Source of the DNA: Candidatus Gastranaerophilales bacterium
GTDB taxonomy: Bacteria; Cyanobacteriota; Vampirovibrionia; Gastranaerophilales; Gastranaerophilaceae
DNA length: 35,282 bases
Assembly (NCBI GenBank): GCA_944322665.1
Contig: CALUPM010000013.1
Coordinates: 1 to 35,282 of the forward strand
Direction of reading: 5' to 3'
Shown here: piece by piece, positions 3,851 to 34,851 of the stretch
Layout: each line of letters opens with the position of its first letter
How positions within the stretch are numbered: position 1 is the first letter of the stretch
Made by a program: the position numbers and the translations under genes
The notes under the pieces: generated by a model
What the model saw: only the letters and a program-made list of their open reading frames with translations
Told to the model about the DNA's origin: nothing
The model's database searches: none

Positions 3851-4993
3851 TTACAAAATTGTTATGTTGTCGCGTGTGATTATTGCATCATAATTTTTGA
3901 ACCCGAGAATTTTGATGATATCGTCAGAATGGCAGCCGATGACTTTGCGGCAGGAGTCCGAATCATAATTAACCATACCGCGGGCAAATTCGTGGTCATT
4001 TTCGTCAATAATTGATATTACGTCGCCTTTTTTAAATTCATGGATTACGTCGATAACGCCGATTGGAAGAAGGCTTTTTTCTTTTTCTACAAGTGCTTTT
4101 TTGGCCCCGTGGTTTACCTTAATTTTTCCGATAATATTTGTCGCATAACCTATCCATCGTTTTTTGTCGGAAAGACCTTCTGTCTGCGGCAGAAACATCG
4201 TGCCGAGTTCTTCGCCTTCAAAAACTTTTTTAATAACATAGGGAATTTTTCCGTTTGCGATGAGAACTTTCCCGCCGAAACGGGTCACCATTCTTGCTGC
4301 CATCAATTTTGTTCTCATTCCGCCGCGGCCGCCGTCAGAAGCGTCGGTTCCAAGGTCCAGAATTTCATCCGTTACTTCATTCACAACCGGAATAATTTTT
4401 GCATCAGGATTTTCTTTAGGGTTTTTGTCATAGAGTCCATCGACGTCTGATAAAATCAAAAGCAAATCTGCGTCAAGTTCGCTTGCAACAAGCGCGGAAA
4501 GTTTGTCGTTGTCTGAAAAACAGACCTGCATGTGTTCATACCGCGGGTCAACTTCAATGCTTGAAACAGTATCATTCTGGTTGATTACAGGAATTACGCC
4601 GAGTTCCAGAAGTTTGTTCAGGGTTGTTCTAAGGCTCAGATATCTTGTTCTTATCCCGAAGTCGTCTTCCGTCAGAAGAATTTGTGCTGCCACAAGCCCG
4701 TAGCCGTCAAATCCGCTTTCGTAAATAGACATAAGTTTTCCCTGTCCGATTGCCGCACAGGCTTGCTTCAGAGCTGTGCCGGTTGTTCCTTCAAGCCCTA
4801 AGCGTTTTCTGCCCAGACCTACGGCACCTGATGTGATGAGAATAACTTCTTTTCCTGATTTTACAAGAGATGCCATATCTTCAATAAATGAAAAAATCCT
4901 CGGCAAGGAAACATTCCCGTCGCTGTTTCTTAAAATATTTGTTCCTAATTTTACGACAACGCGTTTTGCGTTTATAAATTCACTTCTCTTCAT
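3851..4993 (-). CDS. proB: Glutamate 5-kinase with C-terminal PUA domain
   Basis: ProB phosphorylates L-glutamate, the first and usually proline-inhibited step of proline synthesis. The 380-aa form has an amino-acid-kinase domain: VVKLGTN near residue 13, ITSGAVGLG, the aspartate-rich ILSDVDGLYDKNP, and GGRGGMRTK (lid/ATP site). A PUA domain covers roughly the last 100 residues (KVNHGAKKAL onward). No Shine-Dalgarno precedes the ATG. Instead a TATAAT box ends 6 nt upstream, so the message is probably leaderless. First gene of proB-proA-tyrA, divergent from the methyltransferase gene at 5038. Confidence 0.97.
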   Translation of the reverse strand: MKRSEFINAKRVVVKLGTNILRNSDGNVSLPRIFSFIEDMASLVKSGKEVILITSGAVGLGRKRLGLEGTTGTALKQACAAIGQGKLMSIYESGFDGYGLVAAQILLTEDDFGIRTRYLSLRTTLNKLLELGVIPVINQNDTVSSIEVDPRYEHMQVCFSDNDKLSALVASELDADLLLILSDVDGLYDKNPKENPDAKIIPVVNEVTDEILDLGTDASDGGRGGMRTKLMAARMVTRFGGKVLIANGKIPYVIKKVFEGEELGTMFLPQTEGLSDKKRWIGYATNIIGKIKVNHGAKKALVEKEKSLLPIGVIDVIHEFKKGDVISIIDENDHEFARGMVNYDSDSCRKVIGCHSDDIIKILGFKNYDAIITRDNITIL

Positions 4994-4999
4994 AAAATG

Positions 5000-5028
5000 A
5001 TTATAGCATGGAAAAAATTTTATGCTAA
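5000..5028 (-). promoter_or_regulatory. Promoter of proB-proA-tyrA, leaderless type
   Basis: On the minus strand TTAGCA (5028-5023), a 17-nt spacer and TATAAT (5005-5000) precede the proB ATG (4993) by exactly 6 nt. Transcription would begin at or next to the A of ATG. Confidence 0.65.
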
Positions 5029-5037
5029 AATCAGGAC
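5003..5037 (+). promoter_or_regulatory. Promoter of the pterin-binding methyltransferase gene, leaderless type
   Basis: An extended -10, ATGCTAAAAT (hexamer TAAAAT 5026-5031), is followed by 6 nt and then ATG at 5038. It overlaps the divergent proB promoter. TAGCAT (5004-5009) and ATGCTA (5022-5027) form an inverted repeat shared by the two promoters. Confidence 0.6.
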
Positions 5038-5955
5038 ATGATATTGATTGGCGAAAATATTCATGTAGTTTCGGCGGCTGTAAAAGAAGCGCTTTTAAAA
5101 AAGGATGAAGCTTTTATAAAACAGCTTATTTCTCTCCAGAACAAAATGGATTATGCAGATTTAAACGTCGGGCCTGCAAGAGGTGAATTGAGAGGAATTT
5201 TGAATTTTCTCTGTCCTGTTGTTGAGGCAAATTCGGATTTGAAAATTTCTCTTGATACTGTAAATTTTGAAGATATGAAGGCCTCTTTTGAATTTGTCAA
5301 AAATCAGAAGGATGTAATTTTAAACAGCACAGCGGGCGACAGTGCACAACTTGATATGATGACAGATTTTGCCCTGGAAAAAGAATGTAATCTGATTGCG
5401 CTTACAATGACAAAAGCGGGTGGAATTCCTGACACGTGCGATGGCAGAATGGAAATTGCGTTTGAGATTTACGAACAATGTTTAAAGAAAAATCTTTTGG
5501 AAAAACTTTATTTTGACCCGCTCGTACTTCCGCTGACGGCTGCTCAGGCTCAGGCAAAAGAAGCACTTGATACTTTAAAAATGCTGAAAGAAACTTTTGA
5601 AGTTCCGGTAAAAACCGTTATCGGACTTTCCAACATTTCAAACGGTTCGCCTGCAGGATTAAGGCGGTTAATCAACAGGGTTTATGCCTCTCTTTGCATT
5701 GGTGCCGGTCTTGATGCAGTGATTATGGATGCGGCTGATGATGAATTAATAAGAATTCTTAAAATGCTGGACTCTCAAAATCCGGAAAATGAAACCGACA
5801 AACTTTATCTGGATTTGAGTGATATGATAAAAAATTTCACTGATTTAGAAGAAATCAGCTATGACAAAAGTAATCACGAACAGGTCAGAATAATAAAAAC
5901 CTGCGAAGTTCTTTTAAATAAAAAAATATATTCTGACAGCTTTGCACAAGTTTAA
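5038..5955 (+). CDS. Pterin-binding methyltransferase (AcsE / MetH pterin-domain family)
   Basis: A 305-aa TIM-barrel protein of the pterin-binding superfamily that includes methyltetrahydrofolate:corrinoid methyltransferase (AcsE) and the folate domain of MetH. Pterin-contact motifs are visible: DLNVGPARG (residues 41-49), SLDTVN (71-76), LNSTAG (95-100), FDPLVLPL (159-166) and GLSNISNGSP (196-205, with N199). The GLSN(I/V)S motif favours methyl-H4folate enzymes over dihydropteroate synthase. No corrinoid-binding domain is fused and no Wood-Ljungdahl or cobalamin gene lies nearby, so the methyl acceptor is unknown. It could work with a separate corrinoid protein. No Shine-Dalgarno is present; the -10 box places transcription start at the ATG. 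About 50 residues longer than AcsE at the C terminus. Confidence 0.8.
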   Translation: MILIGENIHVVSAAVKEALLKKDEAFIKQLISLQNKMDYADLNVGPARGELRGILNFLCPVVEANSDLKISLDTVNFEDMKASFEFVKNQKDVILNSTAGDSAQLDMMTDFALEKECNLIALTMTKAGGIPDTCDGRMEIAFEIYEQCLKKNLLEKLYFDPLVLPLTAAQAQAKEALDTLKMLKETFEVPVKTVIGLSNISNGSPAGLRRLINRVYASLCIGAGLDAVIMDAADDELIRILKMLDSQNPENETDKLYLDLSDMIKNFTDLEEISYDKSNHEQVRIIKTCEVLLNKKIYSDSFAQV

Positions 5956-11956: not shown

Positions 11957-12358
11957 TTATTTAATTTCAACAGCATTGCAATCTTGTAAAAGCTGTTGTT
12001 CTTTGTGATGCGTAATTTGATACGGAATTGCACCGCAGATTATGGCACCTGCAACTGCGGCATAAGCTGGTAAATCAATATCATTAGCCAGAAGGCTTTT
12101 GGGATGCTTTTTGGCAATTTGCAGCATAAGTGCGCCGGCTCCTAAAAATCCGGCCAAACCGCTTAGCGCTATGGAAATAAAGGATGTCTTTTCTGTCTTT
12201 TTATATCTTTTTACAAATTCGTCGGTTTTATCTGTCGGCACAACAAAATTTTTCAGGTTTTTCCGTTTAATTTCACCGTTCAAATTGATTTCATCGTATG
12301 ATGAAACACGGAATGAATTTGTATTCGGAATTTTGGTCGTTTCAAATTTTAATGTCAT
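11957..12358 (-). CDS. Small hypothetical membrane protein
   Basis: A 133-aa protein. The first 55 residues are polar and basic (FRVSSYDEINLNGEIKRK, then VKRYKKTEK). Two hydrophobic segments follow, SFISIALSGLAGFLGAGALM and AYAAVAGAIICGAIPY, joined by a Lys-rich loop. The short tail ends DCNAVEIK. Such small two-helix proteins with an N-terminal cytoplasmic arm are common in this kind of genome and I recognise no function. The start is uncertain: no Shine-Dalgarno is seen, and a TATAAT lies directly against the ATG, too close to be its -10 box if transcription starts 6-7 nt downstream. It stands alone between gyrA and a repeat-filled spacer. Confidence 0.6.
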   Translation of the reverse strand: MTLKFETTKIPNTNSFRVSSYDEINLNGEIKRKNLKNFVVPTDKTDEFVKRYKKTEKTSFISIALSGLAGFLGAGALMLQIAKKHPKSLLANDIDLPAYAAVAGAIICGAIPYQITHHKEQQLLQDCNAVEIK

Positions 12359-12410
12359 ATTATAATTAAGACATGAAAAATAGTAAATTTGCGCTAAAGA
12401 AGGATGATTG

Positions 12411-12956: not shown

Positions 12957-12985
12957 TTGTTTCTGAAAACCGTTTGTGCTAATAA
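12957..12985 (+). promoter_or_regulatory. Promoter of holA-holB, leaderless type
   Basis: TTGTTT (12957-12962), a 17-nt spacer and TGC-TAATAA (hexamer 12980-12985) lie exactly 6 nt before the holA ATG at 12992. No Shine-Dalgarno is present. Confidence 0.55.
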
Positions 12986-12991
12986 TTAATT

Positions 12992-13948
12992 ATGGCAGTA
13001 TATTTTTTCTACGGCGACGAAGATTTTAATATTGAAAAAGAAATCAACAAGCTCAAAAAAGGTCTGGATAAAAATTTTCTGGAAATGAGTTTCAAAACTT
13101 ATGACAACCCGAAGTTTCCGGATTTAATTTCTATTCTGCGCTCCCAGCCGATGATGTTCGGGAAAATGCTTGTCGTCATCAACTGTCTTGATTATTTCAC
13201 AAAAACTTTCGACGACAAACAGATTAAAGAGATAGAATCCGCACTCGAAAACAACAATGAAAACCTTGATATAGCTTTTGTTGCCTCTCTTCCGCGCGAC
13301 GGCGGCAAAAAACTCGACAGCAGAAAAAAATTGTTTAAAATCTTAGCAAAACACAACCCGAAAGAATGCGCCTCAATTCCCGGCTACAAAACCGCAGAAC
13401 TTGAGGACTGGGTGAAAAAAGAAGCAAAGTCAAAGTCCTTAAAGATTAATCCTGATGCCGTGACAGCCCTTATTATACAGGTCGGAAACAACCTCCGCCA
13501 GCTTGACGGAGAATTAGAGAAACTGAAACTTATGTGCTATCCGGACAAAATCGCAACTAAAGAAACAGTCAAAGAAATCTGTATTTCAAACGAAGATTTG
13601 TTTGCGTTTTCTGATTATCTGATGACAGGCGAAAAAGATAAGGCTCTTCTGGAATACAGAAAACTCTTAGAAAAAAAATATCCGCTTGAAATTTTATCAA
13701 CCCTTCAGACAATGCTCCGCCGCTGGATAATAATTAAGGCAAAAGCGTCGGAACTTTCTACTTTTGAACTCGGCAGACTCACAGGTCAGCATGAATATGT
13801 CGTTAAACTCGCAATACAAAAACTAAAAAAAACAAACCTTAAAGATTTAGTAAATATGAAAAAGAATTTGACGGAAGCCGAGTTTAGAATAAAATCCGGT
13901 CAATCTTTTAACGTGGAAGACGAGGTGGAAAATGCTTTCCTCAAATAA
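12992..13948 (+). CDS. holA: DNA polymerase III subunit delta
   Basis: HolA is the 'wrench' subunit of the clamp loader that opens the beta clamp. The 318-aa protein begins AVYFFYGDEDFNIEKEI, the family's N-terminal YGxD/E element, followed by a degenerate AAA+ fold with no Walker A. It ends in an all-helical collar region (LRQLDGELEKL, ISNEDLFAFSDYL, MLRRWIIIKA). Start: ATG directly after a -10 box, with no ribosome binding site. It overlaps the holB start by 17 bp, so the two clamp-loader genes form one unit. holA and holB are usually unlinked in model bacteria, which makes the pairing worth noting. Confidence 0.88.
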   Translation: MAVYFFYGDEDFNIEKEINKLKKGLDKNFLEMSFKTYDNPKFPDLISILRSQPMMFGKMLVVINCLDYFTKTFDDKQIKEIESALENNNENLDIAFVASLPRDGGKKLDSRKKLFKILAKHNPKECASIPGYKTAELEDWVKKEAKSKSLKINPDAVTALIIQVGNNLRQLDGELEKLKLMCYPDKIATKETVKEICISNEDLFAFSDYLMTGEKDKALLEYRKLLEKKYPLEILSTLQTMLRRWIIIKAKASELSTFELGRLTGQHEYVVKLAIQKLKKTNLKDLVNMKKNLTEAEFRIKSGQSFNVEDEVENAFLK

Positions 13949-19258: not shown

Positions 19259-19287
19259 TTTAAAAAATTGCCAATTTATACTATAAT
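19259..19287 (+). promoter_or_regulatory. Promoter of the U32 gene, leaderless type
   Basis: TTTAAA (19259-19264), 17 nt and TATAAT (19282-19287), which ends exactly 6 nt before the ATG at 19294. No Shine-Dalgarno is present. Confidence 0.6.
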
Positions 19288-19293
19288 TGCTTT

Positions 19294-21108
19294 ATGAAAC
19301 TTAACAAAACAGTAGAGTTATTGGCTCCGGCAAAGGACAAGGAAACGGCGATTGCGGCGGTTAATGCCGGTGCAGATGCGATTTATATCGGCGCTGTGAA
19401 GTTTGGGGCAAGGCAGAATGCTTCAAATTCTCTTGAAGATATAAAAGAAATAGTCGATTATGCACATAAATTTAACGTGCGTGTTCATGTGACATTGAAC
19501 ACAATTTTGTCGGACGATGAACTTAAAGAAGCGGAAAAACTTGTACACAAACTTTACGAAATCGGAGTTGATGCGCTTATTGTGCAGGATATGGGAATTT
19601 TAGGACTTGCAATTGAAGGAAAGCTTCCTCCGGTGGAGCTTCACGCAAGCACGCAATGCAACAACAGAACGCTTGAAAAGGTTAAGTTTTTTCAGAATAC
19701 CGGCGTAAAACGGGTTATTTTAGCGCGCGAACTTACGCTTTCAGAAATTGAACATATCTGTGAAGAAGTGAGAAATAGTGATTTTAATCCGGATATGGAG
19801 ATAGAAGTTTTTGTCCATGGTGCATTATGTGTGTCATACAGCGGACAGTGCTATTTGAGCGCTTCAATCGGCGGAAGATCCGCAAACAGAGGAGAGTGCG
19901 CCCAGCCGTGCCGCAAAAAATATTCGCTTGCGGATGAAGACGGAAAAATTTATGCAAAAGAGAAATATTTATTGAATTTAAAAGACTTCAATGCCTCAAA
20001 ACATATTGAGCGCCTGATTAATGCCGGCGTAAAATCCTTTAAAATAGAAGGCCGGCTGAAAGACTCCGGCTATGTAAAAAATGTGACGGCATATTATCGA
20101 AAAGAAATAGATAAATATGCGGAAAAAACTTCCTCAGGGCAAATTTTCACTGATTTTGAACCCGATTTGAACAAAAGTTTCAACAGAGGATTTACAGATT
20201 ATTTTTTGCCTTCTGTGACGCCTGACAAAAAGGGCAGAAGAAAAAATATAAACAATTTCGACACCCCGAAGTCGCTCGGCGAAAAAATCGGCAGGGTTGA
20301 AAAATTAATAAAAGGCGGCTTTATCCTTAACAGCGCAAAATTAAACCCGCAGGACGGTCTTTGCTATTTTTCGGACGGTGAACTTCTGGGATGTCTTGTA
20401 AATATAGCGGAAGGCAATAAAATTTACCTGAATAACCCGGGAAAAATCAAAGAAGGAACGGTTATTTACAGAAATTTCAACAGCGAATTCGACCGTATCC
20501 TCAAAAACTCAAAAACCGCACGAAAAATCGGGGTTAAATTTGTCTTGAAAGACAAAATTCTGACAGCCGCAGACGAGGACGGAAATACGGCGCAAGTCCC
20601 AGCCGCCTCCGGCGAACCTCCGAAAAATCCGGACAAAATGCGCCTGACTTTAGAAACACAGCTTGCAAAAACAGGCGAAAGTGATTTTTACGCAGAGAGT
20701 ATTGAAATTCTTGGTATTCCTGATTTTATGCCGGTATCTGTAGTAAATGAAATGAGGCGGAAAATTCTTTCAGAATTGAGCGCAAAAAGGCTTGAAAATT
20801 ACAAACGACCGTTTCAGACGCCCTTAAAATACGCAAAATTTCCACTTGAAACTTACGACTACCACGCAAACGTCCTGAATGAAACCGCAAAACAGTTCTA
20901 CAAAAACTGCGGCTGTGAAATTACGGAGGATGCATTAGAAAAAACGCACGATTTTAAAGGAAAAGAACTTATGTGCACAAAATACTGCCTCAAATTCGCC
21001 TTTAACCTGTGCGGGGTCAGGAAAAATCTCTTCCTGACAGACGAAAAAGGGAAAAAATACCCCCTCAAATTCGACTGCAAAAACTGCCGCATGATAATAC
21101 AGGGCTAA
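19294..21108 (+). CDS. U32-family protein, probable 23S rRNA cytidine hydroxylase (RlhA-like)
   Basis: A 604-aa protein of the 'peptidase U32' family. Members of this family are now known to act in hydroxylation of RNA bases (RlhA on 23S rRNA C2501, TrhP/TrhO-type on tRNA U34) rather than proteolysis. It begins VELLAPAKDKETAIAAVNAG, a TIM-barrel start. The family signature EVFVHGALCVSYSGQCYLS is at about 171-189, followed by RGECAQPCRKKY, giving the four cysteines thought to bind an iron-sulfur cluster. IEGRLKDSGYV follows near 255. The C-terminal extension, with further cysteines (CGCE, CTKYC, CKNC), matches the longer RlhA architecture better than the shorter TrhP. No ribosome binding site; leaderless promoter. 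Confidence 0.8.
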   Translation: MKLNKTVELLAPAKDKETAIAAVNAGADAIYIGAVKFGARQNASNSLEDIKEIVDYAHKFNVRVHVTLNTILSDDELKEAEKLVHKLYEIGVDALIVQDMGILGLAIEGKLPPVELHASTQCNNRTLEKVKFFQNTGVKRVILARELTLSEIEHICEEVRNSDFNPDMEIEVFVHGALCVSYSGQCYLSASIGGRSANRGECAQPCRKKYSLADEDGKIYAKEKYLLNLKDFNASKHIERLINAGVKSFKIEGRLKDSGYVKNVTAYYRKEIDKYAEKTSSGQIFTDFEPDLNKSFNRGFTDYFLPSVTPDKKGRRKNINNFDTPKSLGEKIGRVEKLIKGGFILNSAKLNPQDGLCYFSDGELLGCLVNIAEGNKIYLNNPGKIKEGTVIYRNFNSEFDRILKNSKTARKIGVKFVLKDKILTAADEDGNTAQVPAASGEPPKNPDKMRLTLETQLAKTGESDFYAESIEILGIPDFMPVSVVNEMRRKILSELSAKRLENYKRPFQTPLKYAKFPLETYDYHANVLNETAKQFYKNCGCEITEDALEKTHDFKGKELMCTKYCLKFAFNLCGVRKNLFLTDEKGKKYPLKFDCKNCRMIIQG

Positions 21109-25285: not shown

Positions 25286-25957
25286 TTAGTACATAACTCC
25301 GGAATCAAGAATTTTCTGTACTTCCGACTGCATTATTGTATGAATTTCTTCTATGGATTTGGTTCCGTCAATGCTGATAAAATTGTATGTGCTTTTCATT
25401 TTGTTGTATTGTTCAAGGCATTTTTTCTGGTAGATTTCAAAGCTTTTGTAAAAGTCTGTTGAAAATCCGACATCTCTGCCGCTTTCGTAAAAGTCGAGTC
25501 CGGTTGTGCCGATAATACGTTTCAACAAAACATCCACCGGCATATCAAGATAAAAAATCAAATCCGGTTCCGGGGCGTATTCGTACAGGTTTTTAACCCA
25601 TTCTATATCCTGACCTCTTACGACATCGCGCGCAAGGGCAGTATAATAATACCTGTCAAGAAGTACGATAAATCCTGACTTTAAAGCTGGTATTATTGTG
25701 TTTTCAAGCCTGTCCGCAAAGTCTGCCGCATAAAGAAGGCTGTAAGTTGTGGCGTTTAAGAGGTTTCTGTCTTTTGCCTCGTCGATTACTTTGGCAATTA
25801 ACCTTGACGTTTTCCATTCTGACACCATAACACCGTAAGACTGATCTTCGATTGAGCGTTTCAAAAGTTCAAGCTGGGTTGATTTTCCGCTTCCGTCAGT
25901 ACCTTCTATTACTATCAAAAGCCCGTCATAGTTGTGTTTTTTCTTGAATTTTTCCAT
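25286..25957 (-). CDS. Thymidylate-kinase-like P-loop kinase, second of a tandem pair
   Basis: A 223-aa P-loop kinase of the thymidylate kinase family. Walker A is EGTDGSGKST (residues 18-27) and the DRY motif is DRYYYTALARDV (101-112). The phosphate-donor/substrate arginine region, usually FTREPGGT, is replaced by VSEWKTSRLI. This marks a TMK-like subfamily rather than the classical dTMP kinase. It is clearly paralogous to its upstream neighbour, aligned almost without gaps at the same residue numbers. It starts with ATG overlapping the upstream stop (TAATG), so the two are translated together. Compared with the first copy, the segment SNDPYESY has become STDFYKSF, so substrate contacts may differ. 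Product: nucleotide kinase, substrate not proven. Confidence 0.78.
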   Translation of the reverse strand: MEKFKKKHNYDGLLIVIEGTDGSGKSTQLELLKRSIEDQSYGVMVSEWKTSRLIAKVIDEAKDRNLLNATTYSLLYAADFADRLENTIIPALKSGFIVLLDRYYYTALARDVVRGQDIEWVKNLYEYAPEPDLIFYLDMPVDVLLKRIIGTTGLDFYESGRDVGFSTDFYKSFEIYQKKCLEQYNKMKSTYNFISIDGTKSIEEIHTIMQSEVQKILDSGVMY

Positions 25958-26631
25958 TAAATTTCAACTCCTTTAGCTTTTAGAACTTCTCTCAGCATTT
26001 CTCTGATTTTGGTTTGTTTTTTGTGAATGGATTCCGTGGCGTCGATTTTTACAAGCCCGAATTCATCGACCATTTTTTGATATTCTTTTATAACCCGTCC
26101 CTGAAAAATCATATAGCTTTCGTAAGGGTCGTTGCTTAGTTTTAAATCCATACCGGCTTCGTAGAATTTAGGCGCGCGGTTTGAGCAAATCCGCTCCATT
26201 GATACTTTCGGGTTTATGTCAAAATAAACCGCAAGATCCGGTTTGATTGCGAAGTCGTAAACTTTTCTGACCCACTGTGCATCGACTCCTCTTGCAACAT
26301 CACGGGCAAATGCCGTATAGGCATACCTGTCTGCAAGAACTATAAAACCTGCTTTCAGCGCAGGATCAATAACCTGTTTTAATCTGTCCGCAAAGTCGAC
26401 CGCATGAAGAAGCGAGAAGGTTCTTGGCGAGAGCATATTTTTTTTCTTAGCAAGCTTTGTTGTTTTGCTGATTAATTCTGAGGAGTTCCATTCCGTAAAA
26501 ATTACATCCTGCCCGATTGACTTGAGCCAGTCGCGCAGAAGCACAAGCTGTGTTGACTTTCCGCTTCCGTCAATCCCTTCTACACATATTAATGTCCCCT
26601 TTAAATCGTGTTTTTCTTTTAATTTAGACAA
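25957..26631 (-). CDS. Thymidylate-kinase-like P-loop kinase, first of a tandem pair
   Basis: A 224-aa protein with Walker A EGIDGSGKST (18-27) and DRYAYTAFARDV (101-112), followed by LAVYFDINPKVSMERI and a C-terminal SNDPYESYMIFQGRV segment. This is the less diverged of two tandem paralogs. FTEWNSSELI replaces the FTREPGG motif of classical Tmk, a feature of the dTMP-kinase-like subfamily I know from cyanobacteria and some other phyla. Start is TTG with AAGGAG 8 nt upstream; no better start exists. It lies 23 bp after the YhaM-like gene and overlaps the next kinase by one base. Likely in nucleotide metabolism with the nuclease upstream. Confidence 0.8.
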   Translation of the reverse strand: MSKLKEKHDLKGTLICVEGIDGSGKSTQLVLLRDWLKSIGQDVIFTEWNSSELISKTTKLAKKKNMLSPRTFSLLHAVDFADRLKQVIDPALKAGFIVLADRYAYTAFARDVARGVDAQWVRKVYDFAIKPDLAVYFDINPKVSMERICSNRAPKFYEAGMDLKLSNDPYESYMIFQGRVIKEYQKMVDEFGLVKIDATESIHKKQTKIREMLREVLKAKGVEI

Positions 26632-27488: not shown

Positions 27489-27662
27489 AAAAAATCCTTC
27501 TATACTTATTATTTTAAAATTTTACCATAAAGAATTCATGTAAAACACAGATGTAAACATTTATATCTGTTTTCATACATTTAAATAATTGCAGGACAGA
27601 AAATATTAATATATAATAATAACGTAGTAGAAAAAAGGATAAAATGTATAAAAAAGCTTGAT

Positions 27663-27701
27663 ATGATTGAATTTCAGGGGGAGGGGGGCACCCGAAAATA
27701 A
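27663..27701 (+). CDS. Candidate 12-codon leader peptide ahead of pilin-like gene A
   Basis: MIEFQGEGGTRK followed by TAA. It lies in a different frame from the pilin. A five-codon ORF with an AAAAGGA ribosome binding site (ATG 27644, stop TGA 27659-27661) ends 1 nt before its ATG, so re-initiation is possible. Its sequence is repeated with three substitutions before the second pilin-like gene (33108-33146), two of them synonymous in this frame. TTCA and GGAG (27673-27683) pair with CTCCTGAA (27703-27710) across the stop codon. Confidence 0.35.
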   Translation: MIEFQGEGGTRK

Positions 27702-29904: not shown

Positions 29905-30894
29905 CTAATTAGTCAAAATTCCGCTGTTTTCGCCGAATATAAATACCTGAAGCGCGTTTTCCGCTGCCTTTACAGGTTTATAAAAATTCTTCACAAGGAT
30001 TATTTGATTCTGGATTGCCTGATAATTTTTCCCTCTCAAATATTCCCCGAGTTTTTCGGAGGTTTTTGTATAATTTTTTTGTTTCACAAACGGGTAAAAA
30101 ACACTTCTTCTTCTGGAAATTTCCGAGATTGCATAATTCAGAACGTCGTCGTAAGAAATGTCATAGCCGTCGTTTGTCGTAAAATCTATTATAAAATTCA
30201 AATTGTCGCTTGTTGTGATTGAAATATACCCGATAATCCTTTTTTTAGAAGGTTCTTCAATTACATAACGGTTTTTGTAAAACTGTGAATATCCTCCGAA
30301 AATCGGGTCTTCAAACTCCTGCTTTATCCTCTCCAAAGACGGTTTGTAAATTGTTTCAATTTCAGCGTTGTAGAGTCTGCACACGGCTTTTGCGTCCCCG
30401 TTGCAAAAATGCCTGAATCCGTATGGTACATCAGGATTTTTGTTGAAATTTTCGATTTTCCATAAGGTTTCGCTTGCACACTGCCTGAAGCCGCAGCCGT
30501 CAGTGAAAAGTTTCAGAAGTTCGTCGTGGCACTCGTCGACCGAAACTATGAATGATGACGCGCCTTTTGCCGAATATCTCGACGTTACAAAATCTATAAG
30601 CTGTTTACCGGAATCATAAAAATTGTTCTGAAATACAAGACGGGTAATATTGATTTTGTAAGGGTTTCCGATTGCCGGCTCCGTTGTAATCAGCCCTAAA
30701 ATTTCTTTCCCGTCAAGAAGTATAAAGGATTCATTCAAGAACCTGTACCTGAGCGGCAAAATTGAATTGACAAATCCGAACGGTTCATTTAGCAGGGCTT
30801 TCATAAAAAATTCACCCTCCGGCGAGCCGAGATAAGAGATCATTTTTTTTAGTTTCGGATAGTCAAAGCAGTTTAACTTTCGGATACGTGTCAT
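29905..30894 (-). CDS. GNAT-like acetyltransferase-family protein
   Basis: A 329-aa protein with the general look of tandem GNAT folds. The N-terminal half holds FILLDGKEILGLITTEPAIG (beta4-like) and a following RLVFQNNFYDSGKQLIDFVT helix. The second half holds RYVIEEPSKKRIIGYISITT and an ISYDDVLNYAISEISRR helix, which fit an acetyl-CoA-type fold. The classic Q/RxxGxG/A pyrophosphate loop is not clear in either half, so activity is uncertain. It begins MTRIRKLNCFDYPKL, typical of N-terminal GNAT segments. No Shine-Dalgarno; the -10 box lies 6 nt before ATG. Divergent from the zinc dehydrogenase pair. Substrate unknown. Confidence 0.6.
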   Translation of the reverse strand: MTRIRKLNCFDYPKLKKMISYLGSPEGEFFMKALLNEPFGFVNSILPLRYRFLNESFILLDGKEILGLITTEPAIGNPYKINITRLVFQNNFYDSGKQLIDFVTSRYSAKGASSFIVSVDECHDELLKLFTDGCGFRQCASETLWKIENFNKNPDVPYGFRHFCNGDAKAVCRLYNAEIETIYKPSLERIKQEFEDPIFGGYSQFYKNRYVIEEPSKKRIIGYISITTSDNLNFIIDFTTNDGYDISYDDVLNYAISEISRRRSVFYPFVKQKNYTKTSEKLGEYLRGKNYQAIQNQIILVKNFYKPVKAAENALQVFIFGENSGILTN

Positions 30895-30900
30895 ATTCTA

Positions 30901-30929
30901 ATTATATATTTTATTTTAATGTTTCGCAA
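30901..30929 (-). promoter_or_regulatory. Promoter of the GNAT-like gene, leaderless type
   Basis: On the minus strand TTGCGA (30929-30924), 17 nt and TATAAT (30906-30901), ending 6 nt before the ATG at 30894. The best of the five leaderless-type promoters in the window. Confidence 0.7.
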
Positions 30930-33089: not shown

Positions 33090-33146
33090 ATGGCTAAAAT
33101 ACAGAATATGATTGAATTTCAGGGGGAGGGAGGCATCCGGAAATAA
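33090..33146 (+). CDS. Candidate 18-codon leader peptide ahead of pilin-like gene B
   Basis: MAKIQNMIEFQGEGGIRK followed by TAA (33144-33146). AAGGGG lies 5-6 nt before its ATG, the only good ribosome binding site for the pilin region. The last 12 codons match the leader before gene A. It is coupled to the dehydrogenase, starting 2 bp after its stop. TTCA and GGAG (33118-33128) can pair with CTCCTGAA (33148-33155), masking the purine-rich tract across the stop codon. Going from this frame to the pilin requires a +1 shift near AAA-TAA-G or re-initiation. Confidence 0.4.
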   Translation: MAKIQNMIEFQGEGGIRK

Positions 33147-34772: not shown

Positions 34773-34851
34773 AATTATATCTCCTATCGGGTTCGTACAC
34801 ATATCTGCGTACGGTTGTTTGTATCATCTGTGCCGGTTTTACGGCTGTGTT

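Follow-up and report, generated by a model that had tools for sequence, protein, structure and literature searches.

Leaderless mRNAs are a known class of transcript. The survey of Zheng et al. (2011) puts the leaderless share at about 20% in Actinobacteria and about 40% in Deinococcus-Thermus, and describes the TA-led genes of these groups as having a TANNNT-type -10 box, its first T about 12 bp before the start codon, and no Shine-Dalgarno (SD) sequence; in TA-led genomes of low GC content the box comes closer to a strict TATAAT and is joined by a TG peak, and the low-GC leaderless genes of the Lactococcus type have TATAAT with a TG element (PMC3160421). The passages of that survey that list groups with leaderless genes do not name Cyanobacteria, which are placed among the clades with many 'atypical' genes (PMC3160421). 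In Deinococcus-Thermus, the '-10-motif adjacent to ORFs' of Zhong et al. (2025) lies a few bp upstream of the coding sequence and has been shown by experiment to drive leaderless mRNA, and an added -35 raises reporter expression (PMC12340547). The scan in that study covered the bacterial domain; its text, in the sections on the motif, names neither Cyanobacteria nor Melainabacteria, and its Figure S7 spans the common phyla, among which Cyanobacteriota may be included (PMC12340547).

A similar arrangement had been proposed in an earlier note for five genes in one stretch of DNA, each with a -10 box ending exactly 6 nt before the ATG and no SD sequence. This stretch, the window in what follows, is 35,282 bp long (40% GC) and comes from a draft genome of 1,913,809 bp belonging to the Gastranaerophilales of the Melainabacteria, which are mostly uncultured gut bacteria. 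The layout here is like that of the TA-led genes in its box, in the place of the first T (-12 or -13 from the start codon) and in the lack of an SD sequence, and like that of the low-GC genomes in its TATAAT and TG, including those of the Lactococcus type, which belong to a different phylum; the share of genes, at about 7%, is below that of Actinobacteria and of Deinococcus-Thermus (PMC3160421). It is also like the Deinococcus-Thermus motif in having the -10 box a few bp upstream; the latter differs in having been tested experimentally (PMC12340547). The earlier note knew of no description for this lineage, and literature searches agree with it: searches for leaderless with Melainabacteria, Vampirovibrio or Gastranaerophilales, and for Gastranaerophilales with promoter or Shine-Dalgarno, found nothing on the lineage, in which leaderless mRNAs would, as far as these searches go, be new.

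Boxed genes of the window and their relatives

The features concerned are as follows, with the sequence from box to start given for each gene.

3851–4993, minus strand: proB (glutamate 5-kinase), Pfam AA_kinase and PUA; predicted leaderless
5000–5008, minus strand: extended -10 of proB, TGC (5006–5008) and TATAAT (5000–5005), 6 nt before the ATG at 4991–4993 (TATAAT-CATTTT-ATG)
5023–5031, plus strand: extended -10 of the pterin-binding gene, TGC (5023–5025) and TAAAAT (5026–5031), 6 nt before the ATG at 5038 (TAAAAT-CAGGAC-ATG)
5038–5955, plus strand: pterin-binding enzyme gene, Pfam Pterin_bind; predicted leaderless
12977–12985, plus strand: weak extended -10 of holA, TGC and TAATAA (12980–12985), 6 nt before the ATG at 12992 (TAATAA-TTAATT-ATG)
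12992–13948, plus strand: holA (DNA polymerase III delta), Pfam DNA_pol3_delta; possibly leaderless
19282–19287, plus strand: -10 of the U32 gene, TATAAT, 6 nt before the ATG at 19294 (TATAAT-TGCTTT-ATG)
19294–21108, plus strand: peptidase family U32 gene, Pfam Peptidase_U32; predicted leaderless
29905–30894, minus strand: GNAT-like gene (name from the earlier note), without a Pfam match; predicted leaderless
30901–30906, minus strand: -10 of the GNAT-like gene, TATAAT, 6 nt before the ATG at 30892–30894 (TATAAT-TAGAAT-ATG)
30924–30929, minus strand: -35-like TTGCGA of the GNAT-like gene, 17 nt upstream of TATAAT

In all five genes the box is exactly where it had been said to be, and there is no usable SD sequence upstream, the AGGA in the spacer of the pterin-binding gene ending just 1 nt from the ATG. 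Four of the five boxes match TANAAT. The exception is holA, whose TAATAA is without the final T of that pattern, although a TGN-TA core is at the same place in several relatives; holA fits the leaderless layout weakly. The start of the GNAT-like gene at 30894 is borne out by its orthologues, which align from residue 1, but the gene has no Pfam match that would confirm the name it had been given. Its promoter reads TTGCGA-17-TATAAT, and an 'aaacttgcg'-like sequence at the -35 position is common to several relatives. The statement that promoters elsewhere in the window leave leaders of 28–75 nt is only partly upheld, since TANAAT is found, except for a box 1 nt before the L27 gene, at spacers of 17–90 nt at the SD-led genes of the window, with the shortest implied leaders about 11 nt.

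The proB and pterin-binding genes diverge from start codons 44 bp apart, with a TGC preceding both -10 boxes. For either gene, the place of the -35, at 17 bp upstream, coincides with the other gene's -10, which would mean that the promoters overlap and can be expected to be mutually exclusive. Back-to-back pairs of the leaderless type are present in the window (4991–5040) and also at 16650 in L014 (45 bp) and 9951 in L045 (47 bp); in these the two -10 boxes are on opposite strands at a distance of 19–22 bp, which makes overlap of the promoters unavoidable. In 1.37 Mb there are seven divergent box pairs with a gap anywhere between 8 and 45 bp, and none for the shifted-spacing control. Two other TATAAT sequences in the window, both on the minus strand, are not explained by the leaderless layout. 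That at 12359–12364 is at spacer 0 before the ATG of the gene at 11957–12358, and that at 34774–34779 is 1 nt before the start of the L27 gene, after an SD-like GGAG.

For comparison with relatives, orthologue starts were placed by tblastn and a box was taken to be TANAAT or TANNNT at a spacer of 6 or 7 nt from an in-frame start near residue 1; the window's own copy is included in the counts for the U32, GNAT-like, pterin-binding and holA genes, and not in those for proB. The scan for proB gave 33 loci, of which 29 were used (L021–L049, 78–98% identical) and the distant L050–L053, including L050 with no box, were left out. The box is kept in 27 of the 29 proB relatives (TANAAT, spacer 6–7) and in 11 of 17 pterin-binding orthologues (17 of 17 matches). 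Among the matches listed, it is present in 24 of 30 orthologues of the U32 gene (30 of 80 genomes with a match), 20 of 30 of the GNAT-like gene (30 of 38) and 13 of 29 of holA (30 of 39), with one more holA at a contig edge and the window's own holA not among the 13.

Stacking 26 of the proB loci with the window at the ATG gives 27 rows, which leave out L044 and L048 (no box) and L047 (spacer 7). Positions -12 to -7 of this stack are T, A, T, A, A and T, invariant except for a C in one row at the third of these (T in 26/27), and -1 is T in 26/27, while information is at most 0.9 bit at -36 to -23 and at most 0.64 bit in the spacer from -6 to -2. The upstream DNA beyond about 20 bp differs widely among many proB loci, which would suggest that the box signal travels with the gene. 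The box is absent from 2 of the 29 proB loci and 6 of the 17 pterin-binding loci. Some box-less orthologues have an SD sequence in its place (pterin-binding L090 and L097–L099; proB L048; GNAT-like L143, L145 and L146), which suggests that genes have switched between leaderless and SD-led modes.

The spacing peak and its promoters

If the five genes are leaderless, enrichment of -10 boxes at this distance from start codons might be expected across the genome, as the earlier note had recognised, and it is present both in this genome and in all 48 genomes of its family. The sample from the window's own genome consists of 20 stretches of 20 kb and the window (435,282 bp, 39% GC), with 362 called genes having 60 bp upstream. 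The gene caller used a codon model trained on the genome and picked starts from coding score, start type and SD, without any use of the -10 box. Among these genes TANAAT is found 17 times at a spacer of 6 nt and 9 times at 7 nt, where the background is a mean of 3.6 per position (spacers 14–53) and the counts at spacers 2–5 and 8–13 are 1–3 each. A spacing of exactly 6 nt, as had been claimed, is therefore true of the five window genes but not of the genome, where it is 6 or 7 nt (17 + 9 of 362 genes); the corrected spacing corresponds to predicted leaders of 0–1 nt. The peak is robust to the start rule, with counts of 17 and 9 again when SD is left out of the choice (359 genes) and when the most upstream ATG is taken (334 genes).

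Each of the 26 box genes has an SD score of 0 and an ATG start; all are within the 143 genes that score 0, and there are none among the 187 that score 2 or more. That box genes lack SD sequences and SD-led genes lack a box at 6–7 nt is in part geometric, because the box occupies the place of the SD sequence. With the looser TANNNT there is no significant excess at spacers 6 and 7 over all of the sampled genes (38 observed, where 31 would be expected; p 0.12), the enrichment being confined to the SD-less genes (38 at the two spacers against 5.3 per position). The proB, pterin-binding and U32 genes of the window are in the set of 26; holA is outside it because it does not have the TANAAT motif, and the GNAT-like gene because the caller chose a later start (29905–30804, 90 nt downstream). 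By layout, about 7% of the sampled genes are boxed and 52% are SD-led, the remainder being unclassified. If about 7% of genes are indeed leaderless, gene finders guided by SD sequences will misplace starts, as the SD-using caller did once in the window, at the GNAT-like gene.

The boxes have further promoter features. The hexamer is preceded by TGN in 14 of the 26 box genes (the frequency of TG upstream is about 5%), and in 14 of 26 there are at least four of six matches to TTGACA at 16–18 bp, compared with about 3.4 in shuffled upstreams. In five family genomes, the base at -1 is T in 30/35 spacer-6 genes as against 125/324 SD-led genes (Fisher p 8e-8), and in 155/309 genes that are neither; the start is ATG in 49/49 spacer-6/7 genes and 293/324 SD-led genes. 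Bacterial RNA polymerase usually favours starts with a pyrimidine at -1 and a purine at +1.

Distribution within the Cyanobacteriota

Sites of the form TATAAT-N6-7-ATG were compared with the shifted control TATAAT-N9-10-ATG in 117 genomes of the phylum, split by the presence (47/117) of the photosystem reaction-centre family PF00124 (Photo_RC). The window's own genome has 148 against 79, its family (f1) has 9850 against 6085 with the N6-7 count higher in 48/48 genomes, and a second family of the same class (f2) has 358 against 276, higher in 3/3. Among the other families without PF00124, there is an excess in f5 (416 against 220, higher in 5/5), f9 (32 against 12, 1/1), f12 (28 against 5, 2/2) and f13 (65 against 15, 2/2), little in f16 (586 against 526, 2/2), and none in f3 (36 against 31, 3/5), f19 (2 against 3, 0/1) or f30 (81 against 90, 0/1), the last of these represented by G116, which has no Photo_RC match yet falls inside the cyanobacterial RpoB clade and was counted as non-photosynthetic. 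Across the 47 genomes with PF00124 there is no excess (3148 against 3274, N6-7 higher in 20/47). One of them, G089, is a strong outlier (21 against 3). It was considered as a counter-example and rejected, as 12 of its 21 TATAAT-N6-7-ATG sites are in one near-identical sequence that looks like a repeat family, the repeat containing TATAATTTAAA[G/C][C/T]ATG.

Counts based on called starts were also made. In samples of 100 kb from four more genomes of the family, TANAAT is at spacers 6 and 7 in 6/76 genes of G055, 9/86 of G003 and 6/82 of G138, and in 2/76 of G120, which is not significant alone. Around the 29 proB loci (442 genes, a set that includes the proB genes and close relatives) the counts at spacers 6, 7 and 8 are 53, 10 and 1, and in the three f2 genomes pooled (218 genes) they are 6, 5 and 8, with a background of 1.25 per position. 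The pool of five photosynthetic genomes (382 genes) has 2 and 0 at spacers 6 and 7, where the background is 1.5 per position. In the pool of seven other non-photosynthetic genomes (447 genes) TANNNT occurs 15 times at spacer 6 and 4 times at spacer 7, on a background of 5.2 per position, and G001 alone (68% GC) has 5 and 2 against 0.3 (7 in all, where 0.55 would be expected); single genomes of these other families are mostly not significant by start-based counts, only G001 and the pool standing out. In the E. coli control (50 kb, 40 genes) there is no TANAAT at spacers 6–7, and TANNNT occurs twice at spacer 7 against 0.6 per position. Deinococcus radiodurans MP1 (50 kb, 41 genes), with TANNNT at 6–7 in 3 genes against about 0.45 expected, is a weak positive control.

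The leaderless reading and its history

A sigma-70-type promoter with its +1 at the A of the ATG would fit the spacing, the ATG-only starts, the extended -10, the -35 matches and the T at -1. Together with the enrichment, these features support the reading put forward in the earlier note, and leaderless mRNAs made from a -10 box abutting the ATG are the best explanation of the signature and, on the sequence evidence, very probably the right one. The housekeeping sigma-70-type RNA polymerase would bind the -10 box that ends 6–7 nt before the start codon, a box that is in many cases extended (TGN-TATAAT) and in many accompanied by a weak -35. Transcription would then begin at the A of the ATG or 1 nt before it, and the resulting mRNA, leaderless and with no SD sequence, may be translated as in other bacteria by the 70S ribosome engaging the 5'-terminal AUG. 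If so, expression constructs for Gastranaerophilales should place the -10 box against the ATG.

The mRNAs might instead have real leaders of 1–8 nt and be initiated through the 30S subunit and S1 rather than by 70S ribosomes on a 5' AUG. Spacer 7 is within the peak (9/26), that of f2 is broader, at spacers 6–8, and the figures given for Prochlorococcus put 6–8% of primary starts no more than 10 nt from the start codon (PMC5607370); the steep drop at spacer 8 around the proB loci of the Gastranaerophilales and the T at -1 of spacer-6 genes nevertheless make such leaders unlikely. It is less likely still that the true starts are further downstream and that the boxes serve ordinary short leaders. 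The start codons were called from sequence only, and for the GNAT-like gene the caller preferred the later start, which has an SD-like stretch. Against this, for all five genes the protein alignments with nearly all relatives begin at residue 1 or no more than 7 residues from it (at residue 1 in the 29 Gastranaerophilales proB loci), codon 2 of proB is variable in its third position whereas the codons that follow are conserved, as in coding DNA, and the next Met of ProB is residue 40, beyond the VVKLGTN stretch. That AT-rich upstream regions give TANAAT-like boxes anywhere, those at 6 nt having been hand-picked, is refuted, even in a genome as rich in TATAAT as this one (TATAAT-N0-20-ATG at 818 sites, compared with 617 for the reversed control), by the sharp peak at 6–7 nt, by an excess over shifted spacing that runs through the whole family and is missing from the photosynthetic pool, and by the register kept in orthologues, and is barely credible.

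If the genes are leaderless, the distribution has a bearing on the history of the trait. An RpoB tree was made from 23 members of the phylum and two outgroups by a quick method, with one gene and long outgroup branches; G013 (a fragment) and G021, G041, G044 and G144 (no match) were left out, and f9 and f12 are hence absent. The f3/f13 and f5/f16/f19 families form separate early groups, with the order of the first branches not settled, and f1 and f2 together are sister to the photosynthetic clade (SH-aLRT 99% for f1, f2 and the photosynthetic clade, 99% for f3/f13 and 92% for f5/f16/f19). The Gastranaerophilales are among the closest non-photosynthetic relatives of Cyanobacteria, with which this tree agrees.

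The excess in other non-photosynthetic families makes a loss in oxygenic Cyanobacteria possible. With the signature in f1, f2, f5 and f13 (and in f9 and f12) but missing from the photosynthetic clade, a single loss would be simpler than several gains, but against it there is little or nothing in f3, f16 and f19 in the TATAAT count. A joint reading, offered tentatively and with rather less than even confidence, is that leaderless expression is ancestral in Cyanobacteriota and was lost, or fell below detection, toward the oxygenic Cyanobacteria, while genes of the Gastranaerophilales switch states. By this hypothesis leaderless expression would have persisted in the Gastranaerophilales, in their sister family and in non-photosynthetic lineages that branch deeper, oxygenic Cyanobacteria would have moved to leadered initiation without SD sequences, and a change of neighbourhood would let single genes pass in either direction between an SD-led state and a -10 of their own against the ATG. 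The contrast with photosynthetic Cyanobacteria would then point to a branch where one way of initiating translation may have disappeared. The Prochlorococcus starts near start codons reported in PMC5607370 indicate that a missing box peak need not mean an absence of near-leaderless mRNAs.

In the rest of the window, an Rfam search gave no match. Two pilin-like genes (N_methyl) have nearly identical 5' sequence, ATGATTGAATTTCAGGGGGAGGG.GGCA.CCG, at 27655–27700 and 33100–33145, which may represent a leader common to both or a start in a different frame. Two thymidylate-kinase-like genes on the minus strand (25286–26631), both SD-led, are arranged so that the end of one touches the start of the other.
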